DNA of 42,833 nucleotides from assembly GCF_012940005.1 (NCBI RefSeq), contig NZ_SPMX01000054.1, positions 1 through 42,833 of the forward strand. Reading direction: 5' to 3'. The position numbers were made by a program, and so were the translations under genes. Source of the stretch: Candidatus Accumulibacter contiguus (GTDB taxonomy: Bacteria > Pseudomonadota > Gammaproteobacteria > Burkholderiales > Rhodocyclaceae). The notes under the pieces are model-generated. The model worked only from the letters and a program-made list of their open reading frames with translations. It did not search any database and was not told where the DNA came from. Below are positions 6,028 to 34,961 of the stretch, piece by piece; position 1 is the first letter of the stretch; the number at the start of each line of letters is the position of its first letter.

Positions 6028-7377
6028 TCAAAGCAACTCCAGGGGCGGCATCAGGCCTGCAGCGTAAGCCGAAGAGCTGCCCTGCACAGCGGTCTGACCG
6101 AGCTTGGCCAGCACTTTGTTGGCTTCGCGCAAGCGGCCGAGCAGCTTGCTCAGCAGGACCTTGTTGAAGCGTTCCCGTACTTCGTCAGAACTCAAGTCCA
6201 GCGCTGCGCTATTGATCTCCAGGAACAGGGTCGGCTCCAAGGTCACCACCGTGGCGTGACGCCGGGGGTCGGTCGGGTGCAGGAATGCCATTTCTCCAAC
6301 CACCTCGCTTGCGCCGAGCCGACAGATCACCCGTCCATTTGTGGAGATCTCGACAAAGCCGTCAACCACCACGCCAAACTTGCGATGGTTTTCACCTTCA
6401 CGGATGAGCGTGACTTTTTCCGACAGTTCTCGCCAGACACTGATGCGCAGCACTTCCCACAACTCGATATCCTCGAACTCGGTGAAGAACTCCACTTTGC
6501 GCAACTTTTCGAAGTGTGTCAGATCTTGCTGCATCTGATCTTCTTCGAGCATCTGGTAGCGTACCGAGGAAAGATCCTTGGCAAACTCGGCACCATTGCG
6601 GTAGCGGCTGTACAGGTCCTTCTCGAGTGCCTTCTTGATGATCGGATCAAGGCCTGCCGGCAAAGTCGGGTTGAGTGCGCATACCGAAGGCGAGTCCATG
6701 TTGATGATCTTGTAGACCAGCGTTGCGGGATTGTTGGCGCGAAATGGTAGTCGCCCGGTCAGCAACTGGAATAGCAGGACACCAAGCGAATAGAGGTCGG
6801 TCTTGTGATTGAGCGGATAGTTCTTGACCTGCTCAGGGGACATGTAGGCTGGTGAGCCGACGCCCATGACGAAAGTCGAGTCCTTGCCCATATCCTTGAG
6901 GAGATTGAGCCCCAAACCGAAATCGGTGATTTTCGGATTATCGTCGGCATCCAGCAGGATATTGGCCGGTTTGATATCGCGATGCACGACGCCCTGGCGG
7001 AAGGCGTAATCGAGGGCCAGGCAGCACTTGAAGATGATGCCGATGACGCGGTGCATCGGCAGTAGGCGATTGATTGCACAATATTTGTCGAGCGCGGTGC
7101 CATCAATGAACTCCATCACCAGATACGCCTGTTCGGGTTCCACCACGGCGTCGTGGATCTTGACGATGTTCGGGTGATTCAAACGACGGCCGATCGCATC
7201 CTCGGTCTGGAAAAGCTTGCGCAGACGTCGCGACATGGCTGCATTTTCTTCACCGAAGCGGATCAGCTTGATTGCGACCTGGCTGCCCAGGTCCGGATCT
7301 CGAGCCAAATAGACGACAGCAGTCGCACCCTTGCCCAGGGAGCGAATGATTTCATACTTGCCGATCTTCTCCAACAT
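6028..7377 (-). CDS. Soluble Hanks-type Ser/Thr kinase fused to a cyclic-nucleotide-binding-like domain
   Basis: The 449-residue protein has an intact kinase domain (residues 8-275): a glycine loop GKGATAVVY, the ATP lysine K37, HRDIKPAN at 132-139, DFG at 152-154 and SPAYMSPEQ in the activation segment. It is followed by a CNMP/Crp-type beta-roll (about 296-400, with EGENHRKFGVVVDGFVEIS and GEMAFL) and a helical tail. No membrane segment is seen, so it should be cytosolic. Such domain pairing suggests kinase activity gated by a small ligand, as in cGMP-dependent kinases; whether a nucleotide binds here cannot be told. It is convergent with hslU (42 bp apart) and divergent from grpE. It is the first of three Hanks kinases in this window. 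Confidence 0.9.
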   Translation of the reverse strand: MLEKIGKYEIIRSLGKGATAVVYLARDPDLGSQVAIKLIRFGEENAAMSRRLRKLFQTEDAIGRRLNHPNIVKIHDAVVEPEQAYLVMEFIDGTALDKYCAINRLLPMHRVIGIIFKCCLALDYAFRQGVVHRDIKPANILLDADDNPKITDFGLGLNLLKDMGKDSTFVMGVGSPAYMSPEQVKNYPLNHKTDLYSLGVLLFQLLTGRLPFRANNPATLVYKIINMDSPSVCALNPTLPAGLDPIIKKALEKDLYSRYRNGAEFAKDLSSVRYQMLEEDQMQQDLTHFEKLRKVEFFTEFEDIELWEVLRISVWRELSEKVTLIREGENHRKFGVVVDGFVEISTNGRVICRLGASEVVGEMAFLHPTDPRRHATVVTLEPTLFLEINSAALDLSSDEVRERFNKVLLSKLLGRLREANKVLAKLGQTAVQGSSSAYAAGLMPPLELL

Positions 7378-25938: not shown

Positions 25939-26415
25939 TCAGTTGCCGATGTGCATCTGGTATTTGGCACCGTTGGCGAACGAACAAGTTCCGGCACCCT
26001 GATGCGGCGTGTTCATCTGATACTCACAGGACATGTACATGCCGCCAGAACTGAAGGCGCTCGCAACGCCGCGCTTTTCATCGTTCGATATGCGCGTCGC
26101 TTCTCCGCTCAGTACCTCGCCAAGATAGTTGACCACGAAGCGGCCCTTGCCGGTCATCATGTTGGTGACGCTGCCGCTGACGACACCGGTGGGGGTCGCC
26201 AGTTCATTGTTTGGATAGAGCCTGACCGTGAGCGTCGCTGGCGTGGCGCCTGCAGGCGGTGGCAGCGGCGTTCCTGCGGGTGGCAAGGGGTAAGATCTGT
26301 ACTGAGCCGTGCCATCGGGCCCTGCCGCCGGCACCACGTAACAGGCAGAGGTGCTGACCGCCACAGCCAGGAACACGCTGCTCCGCCAGCCACAGAAGGA
26401 TGTTCTTTTGCACAT
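25939..26415 (-). CDS. Small exported protein, possible lipoprotein
   Basis: The 158-residue product has a secretion signal (RSSVFLAVAVSTSAC). Cys25 could be lipidated, but Thr rather than Leu, Val or Ile at -3 makes the lipobox non-canonical. A Pro-rich linker (PLPPAGTPLPPPAG) precedes a small domain with SGSVTNMMTGKGRFVVNYLGE and CEYQMNTPHQGAGTCSFANG. I do not recognise the domain. GGA eight bases before the second ATG favours 26415 over 26421. It is divergent from the FHA-protease operon. Confidence 0.65.
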   Translation of the reverse strand: MCKRTSFCGWRSSVFLAVAVSTSACYVVPAAGPDGTAQYRSYPLPPAGTPLPPPAGATPATLTVRLYPNNELATPTGVVSGSVTNMMTGKGRFVVNYLGEVLSGEATRISNDEKRGVASAFSSGGMYMSCEYQMNTPHQGAGTCSFANGAKYQMHIGN

Positions 26416-26494
26416 ATTCATCTTCCTTTCATCGAGCGCTAATCGCCGCCCAGAGCTTGTGAAACAATCGGGACTGGAGCCTACAGATCAGTCT

Positions 26495-26528: not shown

Positions 26529-26666
26529 TGTAGGCGTTTCCAGGAACTCTGCCATCGATGTCGCAGGATTGAATTGAAGGTTGATGAGCCTTGGGGTAGA
26601 CTGGCACACAGGGTGATGTATCGGTAGTCAATACAATCGGGTGGCACTCACAGGAAGGATGGTCGG

Positions 26667-28784
26667 ATGGAACGTATCGTCATCAAGCACCTTTCGGGCT
26701 CCAAAGCAAATCAGGAGATCAGCTTTCCCCTCGATCAAGTGCCGGAAATATCGCTCGGACGAGATGCCGCATCGACCGTTGCCTATGACATGGAACGTGA
26801 CGATGCCGTCAGCCGCAACCATGCCAGGATCACTCGTGACCCCGCACAGAGCACGGTCTTCATCCTCACCGACCTCGGCAGCCGCAATGGTGTTTTCGTC
26901 AACCAGTCGAGGATCACCGGCAACACGGCGCTGCATCATGGGGACGTCGTGCAGCTTGGTGCCGGGGGCCCGGAATTCAGCTTCCAGATGGATCCGCCAC
27001 CGGCACTCACTGCGAAGGCGACGCGCCAGATCGATCTGAGGCAGGCGGCACCTACCCGCGAGATTTCCCTGGGGCCGGCGGCGAATGCCGATGTACGACC
27101 GCAACGCGTCGTGCTCAGACACCTGACCGGCTCGAAGGCGAACCAGGAGGTCACTTTTCCGGTCGCACAAACCACGGAGATCAGCTTTGGTCGCGACCCT
27201 GCAGCCAGTGTGTCCTACGACGCCGAGCGTGACGATACGGTAAGCCGCAATCATGCGAAGATCGAGCGCGATTCCCAGCAGAAGGGCTTCACGCTGGTCG
27301 ATCTCAACAGTCGCAATGGCGTGTTTGTCAATGGCGCGCGCATCCGCGACAGTGTCGCCTTGCACCATAATGACCTCATCCAGTTCGGAGCGGGAGGGCC
27401 CGAGCTTTCGTTCCAACTGGATCCGCCGCCTGCCGACGCCCTCCGGGCGACGCGTCAGTTCGACCCGCGCCAGGCGCCGCCGGCGCAGACCCGTGAGGCG
27501 ACGGTGGCCCCGCTGGCGGCTGCAGCCGGCAGCGAAACAGCCGCGCCCTCCGCGACCATGGCAGGCACGCGCGGGGTAGGCAAGGAAACGGTGGAAAGGC
27601 TGATTACCGAGACCAGGGTGGAGTCGCGCAAGTCCATGGTCAACATCGTTGCGGCGTTGCTGGCTCTGGTGGCAGTGGTGGCTGGTGTGTTCGTCTTCAT
27701 GGGCAGGGAAACGGACAAGAAGATCGAGGCCACGACATCGCAGGTTCAGGCGGCCAAATCGCAATCGGAAGCGACTGCGTCGACGGTCAAGGCGATGCAG
27801 AATGTAATGACGCCGAAGGAAATTGCTGCTGCGTATTCGGGGTCTACGGTGTACATCGAGGTGAACTGGAAGCTGATCGACCTGGCTTCTGGGCAACCGC
27901 TGTATCACCAATCCTGGGAGGGGAAGCCGGCCTATGTGCGGACGAACAAGGGGGATCTGGAGCCTGTGTTGACGCCACAGGCGCAGAAAAACGCTGCGCC
28001 GATTGGCGGCAGCCACTCTGGTTCGGGATTCGCCGTCACCGAGAACGGGTTCATCCTGACCAATCGCCATGTAGCTGCGCCCTGGAAAGCCTACCAGGTG
28101 TTACCAGCAGGAGTGCGACTCGAATTGAACCAGAAGAAGCAACTAATCGCCGTCGAAAATGTTCCACAGCACCGCTGGTATCCCGAGAGAAGCGTCTGGT
28201 CGCAGACGCCTCTCGGCGAGCAGAAACCCGTTGCCGGACGACATGACCGGCTGGAAGTGACTTTCGCCAACAACAAGCTGCGCATTCCCGCCAAACTCGC
28301 CCGCGTCTCGGACGAGCATGACGTGGCCTTGATCAAGGTGGACACGCCGGCAGCAGTCAAACCGACCGTACTCGCACCCGAGTCGAGCTACGAGGAGGTC
28401 AGGCCGGGCGATACGATCACCGTGCTGGGCTATCCCGGGGTCTCGCCCAAGGTATTCTTCGCCGGCAAATCGAAAGACATACTCGACCCAGGCGGAATGA
28501 ATATTGTGGACATTCCGGTGCCGACCGTCACCCCAGGGGCCATCGGCAAGGTCATACGTGGTACGGTGACCACGACCAGCGGCGGCAAAGACGATTACTA
28601 CAGTGCCTCGGATTCCTATCAACTGACGGCCAACGCCACCGGACCCGGTAACAGCGGCGGGCCAGTCTTCGACGATCGTGGGCGGGTAATCGGTCTCTTC
28701 TACGCCGGCAATCCGACCATCACCTTTGCGGTACCCATCAAGTTCGCCAAGGAACTGATGGAAGTCAAGGCCGTGCTCCAGTAG
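26667..28784 (+). CDS. Tandem-FHA, membrane-anchored trypsin-like serine protease
   Basis: The 705-residue protein begins with two similar FHA domains (residues ~1-110 and ~147-255), which bind phosphothreonine peptides. Both keep the core residues: GR at 31-32 and 175-176, SRNH at 49-52 and 193-196, SRNG at 72-75 and 215-218. After an Ala/Pro-rich linker there is one membrane helix (~325-346), then a coiled region. A trypsin/HtrA-like protease domain follows with His468 (TNRHVAAP), Asp552 (EHDVALIKVD) and Ser663 (GPGNSGGPV). The expected topology is FHA in the cytoplasm and protease outside the inner membrane. No PDZ domain is seen. AAGGA seven bases before the ATG fixes the start. It heads an operon with two kinases and a phosphatase. 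Confidence 0.88.
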   Translation: MERIVIKHLSGSKANQEISFPLDQVPEISLGRDAASTVAYDMERDDAVSRNHARITRDPAQSTVFILTDLGSRNGVFVNQSRITGNTALHHGDVVQLGAGGPEFSFQMDPPPALTAKATRQIDLRQAAPTREISLGPAANADVRPQRVVLRHLTGSKANQEVTFPVAQTTEISFGRDPAASVSYDAERDDTVSRNHAKIERDSQQKGFTLVDLNSRNGVFVNGARIRDSVALHHNDLIQFGAGGPELSFQLDPPPADALRATRQFDPRQAPPAQTREATVAPLAAAAGSETAAPSATMAGTRGVGKETVERLITETRVESRKSMVNIVAALLALVAVVAGVFVFMGRETDKKIEATTSQVQAAKSQSEATASTVKAMQNVMTPKEIAAAYSGSTVYIEVNWKLIDLASGQPLYHQSWEGKPAYVRTNKGDLEPVLTPQAQKNAAPIGGSHSGSGFAVTENGFILTNRHVAAPWKAYQVLPAGVRLELNQKKQLIAVENVPQHRWYPERSVWSQTPLGEQKPVAGRHDRLEVTFANNKLRIPAKLARVSDEHDVALIKVDTPAAVKPTVLAPESSYEEVRPGDTITVLGYPGVSPKVFFAGKSKDILDPGGMNIVDIPVPTVTPGAIGKVIRGTVTTTSGGKDDYYSASDSYQLTANATGPGNSGGPVFDDRGRVIGLFYAGNPTITFAVPIKFAKELMEVKAVLQ

Positions 28785-28813
28785 TTTTGCCTCCGGTGTC
28801 GGCGGCCCATACC

Positions 28814-30067
28814 ATGCTCGCCAACGCAGCGATCGGCGAATATCGTCTGCTCGAATCGCTTGGTGCCGGGGGCATGGGCGAAGTGTACCGCGCGATACAT
28901 TCCAGGATCGGGCGCGTCGTTGCAGTCAAGATTCTCTCGGGTGCCGAACCGGGACCAGGTCTGGCCGAGCGCTTCATCAACGAAGCGCGCATCCAGGCCG
29001 GGCTGCACCATCCGCACATTGCCGAACTCTATGATTTCGTCGAGTTCGATGGACGTCCCTGCATCATCATGGAGTATGTTGATGGCATTACCCTCCATGA
29101 TCGGATACAGCGCGCTCGTGGCGGCATGCCGGCATCCGAAGCGCTGACTGTCTTTCGTGCCGTAGTCGAAGCCATTGCCTATCTGCACGGACGCGGCATT
29201 CTCCATCGGGACATCAAGTCCTCGAACATCAAGCTCAGTTCGAGTGGACAGGTCAAGCTGCTGGACTTTGGAATTGCCAAGGATCCCGGCAGCAAGCGCC
29301 TGACGATGGTCGGCGGTTGTGTCGGCACGATGGATTACCTGGCTCCCGAACAGATCCGGGGCAAGTCTGCGGATGCACGGGCAGATGTCTGGTCGCTGGG
29401 CGTCCTGTTCTACGAAATGCTGACCGCCAACATGCCGTTCGCCGCCGATTCGGTGGGTGTGCTCTGTGAACGCATTAGCCGCGCAGAGTACCGTACTCCG
29501 ACTCTGGCCTCCCCGCTGTCCGCGGATCTGCAGCGCATCATCGGGCGCTGCCTGCGCAGCGATGCGGCCGAACGTTATCATGACGCCCGCGAACTGCTCG
29601 ACGATCTCGGGCAGATCGGGCAATCGCCGCCGGCGCTGACTCCGGCGGCGGAGCGTGGATTTCGATCAGGCGGGTGGTCGACCTGGCGGGGAAACTGGCC
29701 TCTGATCGGCGCCGGGTTTTTGCTTGCTGGCGTGCTGTTTGTCGGGTTCTTCTGGAAGATGCGGCCGGAAACCGCGGTGGACGCTCCACCCAGGTCAAGC
29801 CTGGAGCATGCGGCGCCCGCCGGCTTGCCGGGTGCCGCGCTGCGGGTGGTGCGTATTGGAACGATCGACGGGCCTGCAGATATCTACGAAGAAGGCAAAC
29901 TGCTTGGCACGACGGCAAGGGTGTTCGAGAAGCCGTATCCGGTAGGGGCCCATGTCGCATTGATGCTCAAGCGAGAAGGACATGAAGATGAGCGAGTGGA
30001 GTTCGAGGTTCGCCAGAGCGGTAACGAGTTTCTGGCCTGGCAGCTCCGACCGAAAGGGCGACAGTGA
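28814..30067 (+). CDS. Transmembrane Hanks-type Ser/Thr kinase with PEGA-like C-terminus
   Basis: The 417-residue protein has a complete kinase domain (about 8-268): glycine loop GAGGMGEV at 17-24, Lys39, alphaC Glu57, HRDIKSSN at 131-138, DFG at 151-153 and APEQ in the activation segment. A membrane helix follows (~295-315). The outer C-terminal part (~340-417) resembles a PEGA domain (GPADIYEEGKLLGTT, PYPVGAHVALMLKREGHED). GTG at 28796 or TTG at 28787 are alternative starts; no ribosome site is clear for any. It starts 29 bp after the FHA-protease stop. Its likely substrates include the FHA partner or the second kinase, by inference. Confidence 0.9.
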   Translation: MLANAAIGEYRLLESLGAGGMGEVYRAIHSRIGRVVAVKILSGAEPGPGLAERFINEARIQAGLHHPHIAELYDFVEFDGRPCIIMEYVDGITLHDRIQRARGGMPASEALTVFRAVVEAIAYLHGRGILHRDIKSSNIKLSSSGQVKLLDFGIAKDPGSKRLTMVGGCVGTMDYLAPEQIRGKSADARADVWSLGVLFYEMLTANMPFAADSVGVLCERISRAEYRTPTLASPLSADLQRIIGRCLRSDAAERYHDARELLDDLGQIGQSPPALTPAAERGFRSGGWSTWRGNWPLIGAGFLLAGVLFVGFFWKMRPETAVDAPPRSSLEHAAPAGLPGAALRVVRIGTIDGPADIYEEGKLLGTTARVFEKPYPVGAHVALMLKREGHEDERVEFEVRQSGNEFLAWQLRPKGRQ

Positions 30068-30074
30068 TTCGTCG

Positions 30075-30908
30075 ATGAGTGAAGCGCCTGTGTACTATAC
30101 CATCGAGACCTGCATGGCCACGGACATCGGTTGCGTGCGAACCAGCAACCAGGATTCGATCGCTTTCGTTTCTCCGGGCGACCCCGAGGAACTCAGGAGG
30201 CGGGGTGTGCTGGCGGTAGTGGCAGATGGCATGGGTGGGCACAATGGCGGCGAGGTGGCGAGCAGGGTTGCGGTGGAAACGATCTGCCGTCGATATTTCG
30301 CAAGCCATGATGACGACCCTCTGCGTGCCATCGAGCAGGCGCTACTCGAGGCAAATGCCGCGATCTTTCGCTACGCCGAGGCCGATCGAGCACTCTCGGG
30401 GATGGGAACCACGGCAACGGTGCTGGCCTTGATCGGTCGGCGCATGTGCTTTGGGCATGTGGGTGACAGCCGGCTCTACCGTTGCTCGGATGGCCAGCTC
30501 ACGCAATTGACCAAGGATGACACCCTCGTGGAACAGATGGTGAACGAAGGGCTGATCACGGCCGAACAAGCACGCTACCACCCCGAGCGCAATATCCTGT
30601 TGCGATCTCTGGGGACGCATCCGGATCTGCGTGTTACAGCCGAGGGCGGCGACCCGCCACAGCTTGGCGACACCTTCGTACTCTGCTCGGATGGCCTGTA
30701 CGACAGTGTCGAAGCGCGCGAGATTGCCGAGGTGGTGGAAGCGTGCGACCCACAGGATGCCTGTCGGCGGCTGATCGAACTGGCGCGCGAGCGGGGCGGC
30801 AGCGACAACATTTCCGTCGGCGTCATTGCCGTTCGGCCTCCCGAGGCCGAGGAGAGGCCGATACCGGTGACGCGTGAGATGATCCTGGACCCGGCGGAGG
30901 GCAGGTAA
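30075..30908 (+). CDS. PP2C-family Ser/Thr protein phosphatase
   Basis: The 277-residue phosphatase carries the PPM metal-site motifs in order: RTSNQD (22-27), VADGMGGHNGG (49-59), GMGTTATVLAL, HVGDSRLY, LCSDGLYD and GGSDNISV. No membrane segment is seen, so it is cytosolic. It should reverse Ser/Thr phosphorylation by the neighbouring kinases. The start at 30075, seven bases after the upstream kinase stop, matches the usual domain start; a start at 29982 would overlap that kinase by 86 bp. Its TAA overlaps the next ATG (TAATG). Confidence 0.93.
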   Translation: MSEAPVYYTIETCMATDIGCVRTSNQDSIAFVSPGDPEELRRRGVLAVVADGMGGHNGGEVASRVAVETICRRYFASHDDDPLRAIEQALLEANAAIFRYAEADRALSGMGTTATVLALIGRRMCFGHVGDSRLYRCSDGQLTQLTKDDTLVEQMVNEGLITAEQARYHPERNILLRSLGTHPDLRVTAEGGDPPQLGDTFVLCSDGLYDSVEAREIAEVVEACDPQDACRRLIELARERGGSDNISVGVIAVRPPEAEERPIPVTREMILDPAEGR

Positions 30909-32395
30909 TGGGCAATCTCATCGGTGATTTCGAACTCGTCGCCAAGATTGGCGAAGGGGGTATGGGCGAGGTCTTCAAGGGCCGCGACACGATGCTTGAG
31001 CGAGATGTCGCGATCAAGTCACTGCGCCCGGAATTTGCTGCGCGCGCGGATATCCTTGAACGTTTTCGAACCGAGGCGGTGGCTCTGGCCCGCCTCAATC
31101 ACCCGAACATCGCCGGCGTCTATCGGTTTTTCCGTCATGCTGACCAGTACTACATGGTCATGGAATTTGTCGCCGGCGAAACGCTGGACCAACTCGTCGC
31201 CCGACGCGGCGCGTTACCCTGGGAGGAAGCGATACGCTACGCAATCGCCGCACTGAGTGGTCTTGAGCACGCGCACCGTGCCGGCGTGGTACACCGCGAC
31301 ATCAAGCCCGCGAACATGATGGTGGCAGTGGACGGGTCGCTGAAGTTGATGGATTTCGGCATTGCACGAATCCTCGAGAAGATGCGCCTGACGCGTAGCG
31401 GTCATCTGATCGGAACGCTCGAGTACATGTCGCCCGAACAGGTTCAGGGCAGGGATGTGGACGCCCGCTCGGATCTGTACTCGCTGGCCGTGGTTCTTTT
31501 CGAACTGCTGACCGGGCGTGTCCCGTTCTCGAAGGGGACCGACTTTGAAATCATGAAGGCGCAGCTCGAGGAGCCGCCGCCGCCACTGCGCCAGTTTGCC
31601 GGCGGCGTGCCGGTAGTGCTTGAGGGCATCCTGTCGCAAGCGCTGGCCAAGGATCCGGCGCAGCGCTTCCCGGATGCCGGCGCGTTTCGCCGGGCGCTGG
31701 AGGGAGCGCTGTTCAATGACGTTCCGATGCCCGACACGCTGCCCCGTCTGGTTCCCACGACGCGCCTGTTCACCCCGCAGGATGCCACTTCCGCCGCCGC
31801 AGACGCCGGCAGAACTGCCGGCGTCGCGGAGCCAGCGCTGGCTCGGATCTCGGCCGATGCCGCCAAGGGAAGCATACGCGCATCGCCAGGGCAGGTGCTC
31901 TGGAAAAAGTACCCAGGCATCGTGGCCCTGTTTGTTGCGCTGTTGGTGCTGGGTGCTCTGGCTTGGTGGAGCAGCAGCAAGAAGAGTCCAGTGACACCGG
32001 CCGAGGTGTCTGGCGAGCTGGCACAGAAACCCCCGGTGGCTGTAACGCCTGCGGCTTCGCCGCCGCGTGGCGAGTCCCCAGCTGCCGCCCTGAGCGCACC
32101 AACGCTGCGCGATCCAGTGCTGCCGGCGAGTGCCCCACTATCCGTCCCGGCTGCTCCGGGCAGTCCGGCAGAGGTCCCGCCTTCTTCAATCCCGGCGCCG
32201 CTAGCAGGTCCTGTTGCTGGTCCCGCGCCCGTCAGTCGCGAACGAGCCAGTTCTGGTTCGGGAGAAAAGGTCGCAGTCAAGTCGAGGGTAAGGGAAGCGC
32301 CTTCTCCACAGCCCAGCGTCCGCAGCGACCCAAACCCGCCGGTCGTCAAGCGTGACGATTCCGGTTCGGCGGGCGGATGGACCATACGAAAATGA
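30908..32395 (+). CDS. Second transmembrane Hanks-type Ser/Thr kinase
   Basis: The 495-residue protein has an intact kinase domain (8-270): GEGGMGEV loop, Lys37, HRDIKPAN at 129-136, DFG at 149-151, GTLEYMSPEQ. A juxtamembrane region rich in Ala and Thr leads to one membrane helix (~337-354). The outside portion (~360-495) is a long Pro/Ala/Ser-rich region without a recognisable fold. This could span the periplasm or contact the cell wall. The start overlaps the phosphatase stop by one base, and its own stop overlaps the next gene (ATGA), so translation is coupled through the block. Confidence 0.92.
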   Translation: MGNLIGDFELVAKIGEGGMGEVFKGRDTMLERDVAIKSLRPEFAARADILERFRTEAVALARLNHPNIAGVYRFFRHADQYYMVMEFVAGETLDQLVARRGALPWEEAIRYAIAALSGLEHAHRAGVVHRDIKPANMMVAVDGSLKLMDFGIARILEKMRLTRSGHLIGTLEYMSPEQVQGRDVDARSDLYSLAVVLFELLTGRVPFSKGTDFEIMKAQLEEPPPPLRQFAGGVPVVLEGILSQALAKDPAQRFPDAGAFRRALEGALFNDVPMPDTLPRLVPTTRLFTPQDATSAAADAGRTAGVAEPALARISADAAKGSIRASPGQVLWKKYPGIVALFVALLVLGALAWWSSSKKSPVTPAEVSGELAQKPPVAVTPAASPPRGESPAAALSAPTLRDPVLPASAPLSVPAAPGSPAEVPPSSIPAPLAGPVAGPAPVSRERASSGSGEKVAVKSRVREAPSPQPSVRSDPNPPVVKRDDSGSAGGWTIRK

Positions 32396-32943
32396 TCAAT
32401 GCCTTCCGAACCACCTCGCGGTTGCGCGCTCTGCTGCTCAGTTTCGGCACGCTCCTGCTGGTCGCCTGTGCCACCGGTCAGGGTTCCTCCCCGGTCGGCG
32501 CCATTCAGTCCTGGTTCTCGCGTATGGAGAAAGGCACGCGCCAGCCCGGTGAAAAGCTCGTCAGCCCTGCCGATGTCGTCTGGAAGGAACGCAACTGCGC
32601 CAGGCTGCAACGTCCCTATATCGACATCGACTTGAACGAGGTCCTGCCATCTCGTGTCACCGCTGGGGAAGAGTTCAATCACCGCATGATCTATTCGATG
32701 TGTCCGATACGCACTGCGGAAGTGGTGGTGGGGGACCTTTCCCGTCGCATCCTCTTCAAGGGCAATACGGTTTTCGAAGATGTTTCGCGTCGCTTCGAGA
32801 TCAGACCCGGAAAGTGGCAGCTCGATGCCTTCATCGGTATACCGGCAGCGGCCCCAGCCGGTGCCTATTCCCTGGAAGTCGCTTTTTCGAGTAGCACATT
32901 GCGCTTCCAGCGCAGCGCGAGTCTGGTGGTCATCCGGCCCTAG
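32392..32943 (+). CDS. Lipoprotein of the kinase/phosphatase operon
   Basis: The 183-residue product has a signal peptide with a good lipobox (LLLVAC, lipidated Cys about residue 26). The remainder contains two further Cys (KERNCARL and YSMCPI) and a predicted all-beta C-terminal region (PGKWQLDAFIGIPAAAPAG, SLEVAFSSSTLRFQRSASLVVI). I do not recognise the family. The ATGA overlap with the kinase gene ties it to the operon. It may be the periplasmic input or a target of the protease; this is inference. Confidence 0.75.
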   Translation: MINAFRTTSRLRALLLSFGTLLLVACATGQGSSPVGAIQSWFSRMEKGTRQPGEKLVSPADVVWKERNCARLQRPYIDIDLNEVLPSRVTAGEEFNHRMIYSMCPIRTAEVVVGDLSRRILFKGNTVFEDVSRRFEIRPGKWQLDAFIGIPAAAPAGAYSLEVAFSSSTLRFQRSASLVVIRP

Positions 32944-33677: not shown

Positions 33678-33695
33678 CAGGGCAATCGCTTACAC
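33678..33695. repeat. Left terminal inverted repeat of the ISAs1 element
   Basis: CAGGGCAATCGCTTACAC. The transposase stop codon (TAA on the minus strand, 33692-33690) lies inside this repeat. The 10 bases to its left, AGTTCGCCCA, are the left copy of the target duplication. Confidence 0.95.
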
Positions 33696-34852
33696 GGATA
33701 GCATGATGTCTTCGCTCGCCGTCGCCGAGAAAGCGAGACTGATCAAGGATTCGCGGTAATCCTGATGCCGGTCGGCGTGAACGCGTCGGCGGCGCAAACC
33801 CATCTTCGAATCCTCATCCTTGCGCAAGGTCGCCAAGTCGAACTTGCGCAGAACGGAGAAGTTCCGCGCTGAGTGACCTTTGCGGGCACGGCAGTGATCC
33901 TCGCGGAAGACCACATCGAGTGTCCAGTGCAAACCGTTCTCGATGCCCCAATGGTTGCGAGACGCATTGGCGAACATGGCGACGGTCTGGACGCCGCTGG
34001 AACCAATGGCGTAACGATGCTCGGTATGGACGGTATTGCCGATTTCCCGCACCGACTCGATCATGCCCACACCCCCGAGTTTCTTCCACGCCTGGCGCAT
34101 CGGCTTGTCCATCCAGGAGACGTCATGGATCCACGTGTAGCGGCGTGTCTCGATCCGGCCGTGATCCTTCTCGATTTCCTCAAAACGCTGAACGTTCAGG
34201 CGACCAAAGCCGGCCTGGTTGCCCTCCTCAAAAAAACTCCCGAATCGCTTCGGCCAAGTTCTTCTGGTTGTCTTTGACCTGCAGGACGTAATCCCCACCC
34301 CCGGTCGACGATCTTCTCCGCCACCTCGGTTTGGCAACCCAGAGCATCTGTTGTGGCAATACATCCTTTTAATATGAGTACCTCAAGCAAGTTCTTGAGC
34401 CCCGCCAACTCGTGTCCCTTGCCGCAAGTTCCCTCCTGCGCCAGACAAAGGCCACTTCCTACCGCGTAGGCCGTCACCCTATGGAGGAGTTCATTGCTTC
34501 CTTTCTTCCCCGAACCACGCAAGGTCTTCCCGTCGAAAGCGACCACTCCTTCCACGACACCGACCAATCCCGCGACCCATTGCCGAAAGCGCTCCTCAAA
34601 TACGCTCCCATCCAGCACCCGAAAGATATCGCCAAACGTGTCATGGGAGGGCGTCCCTCCCTTCAGAGCCCAACCAAATTGCTCCCGCAACCACTCTTGT
34701 CGATCCCGACACCAGTCTGCGACCTCCGCCCAGTTGTCGGCGCCACACAGAGTCGCGCAAACCGCCATCACCACCGTTTCCATCAAGACGTAGCGCTTGG
34801 CCGGACCTCGACGTTTGTCCGGCAATCCCGAAAACGTTTCTACAAGCGTCAT
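33690..34852 (-). pseudogene. ISAs1-family transposase with two apparent frameshifts
   Basis: The frame from ATG 34852 (GGAGG eight bases upstream) begins MTLVETFSGLPDKRRGPAKR and includes SHDTFGDIF and VVAFDGKTLRGSGKKG, the region with the first catalytic Asp. It continues to ATTDALGCQTEVAEKIVDRG. There an extra G in a G5 run (34298-34302) and an extra base in a seven-base run (34230-34236) shift the frame; between them the +1 corrected frame reads DYVLQVKDNQKNLAEAI. The rest (GNQAGFGRLNVQRFEEIEKD, NHWGIENGLHWTLDVVFRED) is intact to the stop at 33690. Corrected length is 386 residues, normal for the family. The shifts match the homopolymer errors seen elsewhere, so the gene may be intact. 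Confidence 0.85.
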
Positions 34853-34961
34853 CAAACCGCCCTCCGAAAAGGAGAGAGTAGACCCCATTGCTATTTGCAA
34901 ATCAATACTATGGCATAAATGCATGATAGTAAAAGAATATTCTCAGCTGCGTACGACATCT

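Follow-up and report, generated by a model that had tools for sequence, protein, structure and literature searches.

We examined a five-gene operon in the window, by which we mean the whole 42,833-nucleotide stretch of DNA analyzed (contig NZ_SPMX01000054.1), part of a 5.0-Mb genome in 167 contigs of the Candidatus (Ca.) Accumulibacter type. Its five open reading frames (ORFs) are intact, lie on one strand (+), and encode in order a protein with two FHA domains, a transmembrane segment, and a trypsin-like domain (the FHA-protease), a Hanks-type kinase (PK1), a PP2C phosphatase, a second Hanks-type kinase (PK2), and a lipoprotein. This composition had been proposed in an earlier reading of the DNA alone (the original prediction), and it was borne out: each ORF was present where it had been placed, and the Pfam matches were far beyond chance. 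The features are as follows.

26573 to 26666, + strand: conserved upstream stretch, the probable promoter and leader of the operon, placed by the start of DNA homology
26667 to 28784, + strand: FHA-protease, 705 amino acids, with two FHA domains, linker, transmembrane segment, helical stretch, and trypsin-like protease domain (ORF, Pfam, alignment, hydropathy)
26751 to 26960, + strand: FHA domain 1 (PF00498, residues 29–98)
27180 to 27389, + strand: FHA domain 2 (PF00498, residues 172–241)
27645 to 27701, + strand: single transmembrane segment of the protease (hydropathy 3.01)
28020 to 28697, + strand: trypsin-like domain, triad H468, D552, S663 (Pfam and alignment)
28814 to 30067, + strand: PK1, membrane Hanks kinase, 417 amino acids, with a conserved C-terminal part that has no convincing Pfam match (Pfam, alignment)
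29988 to 30908, + strand: PP2C phosphatase of the Stp1/IreP type; start at 29982 or 29988, a shorter start at 30075 being possible (model score, comparison of N termini)
30908 to 32395, + strand: PK2, membrane Hanks kinase, 495 amino acids (Pfam, alignment)
32392 to 32943, + strand: lipoprotein with two further invariant Cys residues and a predicted Ig-like beta sandwich (profile search, model, fold search)

Retention of the gene set in related genomes had been fixed beforehand as a check on the original prediction, and this check did not refute it. A protease profile built from six relatives matched six genomes in a genus sample of 28. Five of these encode two FHA domains (77–100% identity to the window), and in all five the order protease-PK1-PP2C-PK2-lipoprotein was kept, with short gaps or overlaps. 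These full-operon genomes (the window genome, G010, G026, G021, and G008) represent one lineage; relatives with the same block include Ca. Accumulibacter vicinus, Ca. A. necessarius, and Accumulibacter sp. Bin45. An orthologue of PK1 (69–87% identity to the window) was found only in the same five of the 28 genomes, the other listed kinase matches to PK1 being at most 39% identical, and a lipoprotein profile matched the five full-operon genomes and no other of 150 relatives. All five genes were under purifying selection, with a ratio of nonsynonymous to synonymous substitution rates (dN/dS) of 0.07–0.25 in three comparisons; selection was strongest on the FHA-protease (0.07–0.13).

Wider draws were made within the phylum at E-values up to 1e-20, and more divergent FHA-protease fusions would be missed at that threshold. 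With the window's own match included, the profile found two genomes in each of three overlapping draws (369 genomes of the class, 398 of the phylum, and 399 of the order), the match outside the genus always being G105, which belongs to another family. A family draw of 297 gave four matches, all within the genus. Carriage on a plasmid found no support: tblastn of the protease against a plasmid collection gave no match at E-values up to 1e-15. A full-text literature search, judged by titles and the beginnings of abstracts and with most subscription papers outside its coverage, showed among the papers listed no account of the five-gene set or of an FHA-transmembrane-trypsin fusion. The operon is real, rare, and well kept.

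A simpler form was present in G105 and in G012, the sixth match within the genus. In both, the protease has one FHA domain, and the genes behind it encode PP2C and a PK2-like kinase (56% identity in G105 and 49% in G012, over the kinase domain), with no PK1 between. The G012 genome is 88% complete, and its contig ends inside the PK2-like kinase. The core shared with the full operon is thus the FHA-protease, PP2C, and a PK2-like kinase. The kinase of G105 is followed by a glycine-zipper lipoprotein (L039 7193–7810, − strand) of another family, so a different lipoprotein occupies the same operon position. A joint gain or loss of the second FHA domain, PK1, and the specific lipoprotein is suggested, and only suggested, by these two simpler loci and the five full loci of one lineage.

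The original claim that the active sites are intact was supported. The FHA-protease matched FHA in two stretches (E = 6e-37) and Trypsin_2 (E = 2e-20, above the cut-off), and each FHA domain passed the PF00498 cut-off by itself (64 and 71 bits versus 20.7 bits). Identity between the two FHA-linker units is about 59% (internal match 58.7%). Contact of an FHA domain with phosphothreonine (pThr) depends on the residues GR, SRxH, and NG, and this signature is intact in both window domains. His468, Asp552, and Ser663 of the protease triad were invariant in six of six aligned sequences. The two kinases matched Pkinase with E-values of 2e-56 and 1e-53, and their Lys, HRD, and DFG residues are intact in all five full operons; the phosphatase matched PP2C_2 (E = 1e-16). 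No PDZ match was obtained with the whole protease (E up to 0.1) or with residues 392–705 (E up to 5). In the whole-protein model of the FHA-protease, the mean predicted local distance difference test score (pLDDT) was 49, and the two FHA regions reached about 71–88. Basic residues (K/R) before versus after the transmembrane segment numbered 5 versus 1 in G105, 4 versus 3 in G012, and 3 versus 3 in the window. The protease domain is most likely periplasmic.

FHA domains may prefer a hydrophobic residue at the third position after the phosphothreonine (pT+3). We found a recurring motif of this kind, T-R-x-[ILVMF] or TRx(hydrophobic), in the linkers and tails of the operon proteins; matches within folded domains (the PP2C of G105 and the kinase of G012) were excluded as linker sites. 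Five threonines are proposed phosphosites.

27021 to 27023, + strand: Thr119 of TRQI, FHA linker, conserved in 5/5 full operons
27054 to 27056, + strand: Thr130 of TREI, FHA linker, conserved in 5/5
27450 to 27452, + strand: Thr262 of TRQF, FHA linker, conserved in 5/5, with T262-R263 invariant in a six-row alignment
30870 to 30872, + strand: Thr of PVTREM, PP2C tail, in 5/5 full operons and 0/19 stand-alone paralogues
31760 to 31762, + strand: Thr285 of PTTRLF, PK2 linker between kinase domain and membrane, in 5/5 full operons and 0/15 other kinases

When five linkers were shuffled, none of 100,000 shuffles reached the total of six occurrences (protease T301 included). Single linkers gave values of 0.001, 0.007, 0.09, and 0.035, the PK1 linker being without the motif. 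The operon contains 6 motifs per 2082 amino acids, versus 6 per 8897 in 22 other window ORFs picked as likely genes. Stand-alone PP2C paralogues, 52–62% identical to the operon PP2C and listed in 19 of the 28 genus genomes, had no motif in any of their 19 tails. Among 27 kinase linkers in the loci examined, the motif occurred only in the five operon PK2 linkers (PK1 0/5, PK2-like kinases of the simpler operons 0/2, others 0/15). For FHA proteins outside the tandem operons (13 rows, 10 loci), it occurred only in the G012 protease (two rows, ATRLV and ATRLI) and was not found in those of G105 and eight other loci. Near-matches that fail the pattern were seen in G105: TRQA in the FHA linker and PITRV at the PP2C end. 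The FHA linkers were modeled with low pLDDT, yet their motif threonines were kept. In the available text of one study, FHA domains select at pT+3, and in the Agrobacterium Fha/TssL pair the FHA domain is reported to bind, in vitro, a kinase-made pThr on its membrane partner (PMC3953482). We propose that the FHA domains read the TRx(hydrophobic) sites as phosphothreonine docking sites. In other FHA proteins of related genomes (loci L003, L022, L030, L031, L033, and L035), a recurring stretch of another kind comes behind the FHA domain, for example RTMLM or HTLVL followed by LSE.F, and is perhaps another type of phosphosite.

Our preferred account, to which we give close to but not quite an even chance, is that the operon encodes a self-assembling inner-membrane phospho-signaling complex with the protease as its output. 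The composition, the intact active sites, the co-retention of the genes, and the distribution of the motif relative to paralogues support it; the phosphorylation, the binding, the periplasmic location of the protease, and the control of its activity are what we infer. A signal from beyond the inner membrane would be sensed by PK2, PK1, or both, which would then phosphorylate the motif threonines on PK2, PP2C, and the protease. The two FHA domains would bind these phosphothreonines within and between molecules and so gather protease, PK2, and PP2C into one cluster. Clustering, or a pull across the single transmembrane segment, would switch the protease domain, and PP2C, docked through its own motif, would reset the switch. 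The lipoprotein would most likely be a periplasmic partner, as input, inhibitor, or substrate. Phosphorylation would in this way gate proteolysis, as the original prediction had suggested, with the TRx(hydrophobic) motif as indirect support. A more specific version is possible but doubtful: a shared TRx(hydrophobic) code, written by two kinases on PK2, PP2C, and the protease and read by tandem FHA domains that draw the three together, would turn cytoplasmic Hanks-kinase signaling directly into periplasmic proteolysis, the same code recruiting PP2C for the reset.

In our judgment, what bacterial Hanks kinases act on is poorly mapped. In this case a single polypeptide, apparently spanning the membrane, is both reader and effector enzyme, so that one operon names the writer, the eraser, the reader, and the output. 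The proposed code consists of a handful of threonines and is directly testable, and the TR-bearing PP2C tail, compared with 19 stand-alone paralogues without TR, provides a natural comparison for tying a phosphatase to one circuit.

Several points weigh against this account. The motif was defined after inspection of the sequences, and its sites are not independent, because all five genomes belong to a single lineage and the FHA linkers are duplicates of each other. The sixth occurrence, T301 of the protease, is not conserved, PK1 has no motif, and the PK2 linker, weak in the shuffles at 0.09, would not stand out alone. The 15 control kinases represent about two families, and many of them have, by sequence, no comparable membrane linker. 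The simpler operons have no motif in the PK2-like linker (0/2) or the PP2C tail (0/2), and TRQA in the FHA linker of G105 is without the hydrophobic residue. The Agrobacterium TssL site, as given in the available text, is pTVVE, with Glu at +3 and weak binding (Kd 0.5–1.6 mM; PMC3953482). The protease part was poorly modeled, as the whole-model mean given above reflects, and its topology comes from hydropathy, with K/R equal on both sides in the window and an N-in orientation favored only in the simpler relatives.

The FHA domains might instead only place a constitutively active protease at phosphorylated kinases or membrane partners, where it would cleave periplasmic targets close by, for example the ectodomains of the kinases or the lipoprotein; phosphorylation would then set where, not whether, cleavage occurs. 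FHA domains are binding modules, the PK2-linker motif would be enough to recruit the protease, and the part of PK2 beyond the membrane is long, Pro/Ala-rich, and could be trimmed by the protease. What such placement leaves unexplained is the motif in the protease's own linkers, where three sites are kept in 5/5 operons, and we consider it unlikely, if a serious contender.

Signaling could also run in the reverse direction, with the protease as a sensor or shedding device that tunes the kinases by cutting the lipoprotein or the outer part of PK1 or PK2; the output would be kinase signaling, with its main targets elsewhere in the cell. Two kinases with different C-terminal parts plus a phosphatase exceed the need of one protease, and stand-alone PP2C paralogues are found in 19 of 28 genomes, so this type of phosphatase also works without the protease. 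This reading is nonetheless distinctly improbable in our view, given that purifying selection is strongest on the FHA-protease and that the parts recurring in the simpler form are the protease, PP2C, and the PK2-like kinase.

The type VI secretion threonine phosphorylation pathway (PpkA, PppA, and Fha/TagH) offers the same three types of enzyme and reader: a membrane Hanks kinase, a PP2C phosphatase, and an FHA protein, which there bound pThr on a membrane partner in vitro, according to the available text (PMC3953482). The operon could be a relative of that pathway moved to another membrane machine. The FHA-protease matched the TagH/Fha model TIGR03354 with 55.1 bits, under the cut-off of 120.25, and a VipB gene lies elsewhere in the G105 genome. 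The original prediction had noted that no type VI system accompanies the operon, and this agrees with the search for VipB (PF05943), which gave no match in any of the six Accumulibacter protease carriers (G012, 88% complete, among them). Control of type VI secretion by the operon in Accumulibacter is unsupported. By the TagH and VipB tests the operon, which works in the manner of a kinase/PP2C/FHA trio, does not belong to the type VI pathway. Unlike the known pathway, the operon has its reader fused across a transmembrane segment to a protease, two kinases, and a lipoprotein, and we regard this origin as very unlikely.

Least probable, and hardly credible in our view, is a defence or cell-death system in which the kinases would release the protease. 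In its favor are matches of the kinases to PADLOC kinase models, a weak match of the protease domain to RT-Protease_XI, and the change of place of the block within the genus. Against it, such kinase matches would be expected of Hanks kinases in general, the neighboring ORFs scanned (with Pfam or NCBIfam, not PADLOC) include chaperone, amino-acid synthesis, transport, and dehydrogenase genes, and the block diverges about like its neighbors and so has no look of a recent transfer. Conflict systems that contain peptidases, some of them with kinase/PP2C/vWA genes, combine trypsin-like peptidases, kinases, PP2C, and occasional FHA domains, and the available text describes no FHA-transmembrane-trypsin fusion (PMC7159879). 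Unlike them, the five operon proteins gave no vWA or STAND NTPase match in the Pfam scan.

The operon also resembles other known systems in part. Like HtrA, DegS, and MarP, its protease has a membrane-anchored trypsin-like domain with an intact triad, and weak matches to the degP_htrA_DO and MarP_fam_protase models were obtained. Unlike them, it carries two N-terminal FHA domains and has no PDZ match, and its scores were far below the family cut-offs (DegP 52 of 416 bits, DegS 20 of 423, MarP 33.6 of 250). GarA/OdhI and FhaA/FhaB are readers of PknB-type kinases in which the FHA domain is controlled by nearby threonine motifs, and they are not known as protease fusions. The FhaB and OdhI models matched the operon reader below cut-off.

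PK1 and PK2 each have one hydrophobic segment, after the kinase domain. They scored 259 and 337 bits with the PknB/Stk1 model NF033483, under its cut-off of 450 bits, and no Pfam match to a PASTA ectodomain was found in the operon kinases. A PEGA-like domain in PK1, a guess from reading the sequence, received no support from Pfam. The window contains a further Hanks-type kinase gene at 6028–7377 (− strand), about 19 kb from the operon and 33% identical to PK1.

Of the gene junctions originally described, the 29-nt gap between the protease and PK1 genes and the 1-nt TAATG-type overlap of PP2C with PK2 stood; the 7-bp gap between PK1 and PP2C is probably not real. The PP2C frame is open for 111 nt upstream of the start first assigned, and it contains in-frame ATGs at 29982 and 29988, from which the protein would begin with a W.SRFARAVTSFWPG stretch. 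All five operon copies share an upstream ATG and a similar, somewhat changed peptide, and a like beginning (MGKWS.R..) is seen in at least 4 of the 19 stand-alone paralogues. The ATG at 29988 has a better-spaced AAGGA, and in G008 the ATG is present only at the 29982 position. The upstream ATGs and the kept N terminus of PP2C therefore make an overlap of 80 or 86 nt with PK1 the most likely arrangement. The basic, Trp-containing N terminus could act as a membrane hold. The phosphatase scored 238.5 bits with the Stp1/IreP model NF033484, above the cut-off of 230. The ATGA overlap of PK2 with the lipoprotein gene was upheld, the start at 32392 being likely; an in-frame ATG is also present at 32377. 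DNA homology upstream of the protease begins at 26573–26574 with G010, G026, and G021 and at 26666 with G008.

The lipoprotein was modeled as a beta sandwich with moderate confidence (pLDDT 68). Its fold search returned generic Ig-like or MG-like sandwiches, with TM-scores (query) of 0.27–0.43 in the best 50 rows; the predicted fold resembles many Ig-like domains and does not tell the role of the protein.

In the window, a small gene of 160 amino acids and MarC flank the block. These two genes adjoin in G021 (about 145 bp apart) and in G006 (about 100 bp), which is the window's site without the block; G021 carries the block on another contig, and G006 has no protease match. On the right, DNA homology with G010 and G026 runs to the lipoprotein stop (32943), whereas with G021 it ends at 32934. 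The left neighbors in G010 and G026 are as in the window, and no MarC match was found in 5.7–6.9 kb rightward. None of the window's close neighbors stands beside the block in G021, and G008 shows only a DUF2062 gene, which lies 1.5 kb upstream; its locus may thus be the same place after rearrangement. By these comparisons the block is in at least two surroundings across the genus. Identity of window and G010 DNA was 85.5% in the operon and 87.6% in the small neighbor gene; with G021 it was 83.1% and 80.5% in the operon (two pieces) and 79.6% and 85.7% in neighbors. Recent transfer of the block as a unit is not favored, as its divergence between species about equals that of the neighboring genes. 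This points to a block long present and moved inside genomes rather than one that arrived recently.

Among the matches listed, the window genome had no stand-alone PP2C. In 6 of 19 loci (L137, L144, L145, L146, L138, and L071) the stand-alone PP2C gene adjoins MarC or the 160-amino-acid gene or stands about 1.5 kb away from one of them. An origin of the operon around a resident PP2C gene was considered on this account; the gene order at those loci is unlike that of the window, and we leave this origin open. The small gene (25939–26421, − strand), found in 16 of the 28 genus genomes, is divergent from the operon, and its product has a signal-peptide-like N terminus and no Pfam match. Just to the right of MarC is a transposase-like gene (33690–34924, − strand) in two overlapping frames, apparently frameshifted, one scanned piece of which matched DDE_Tnp_1.

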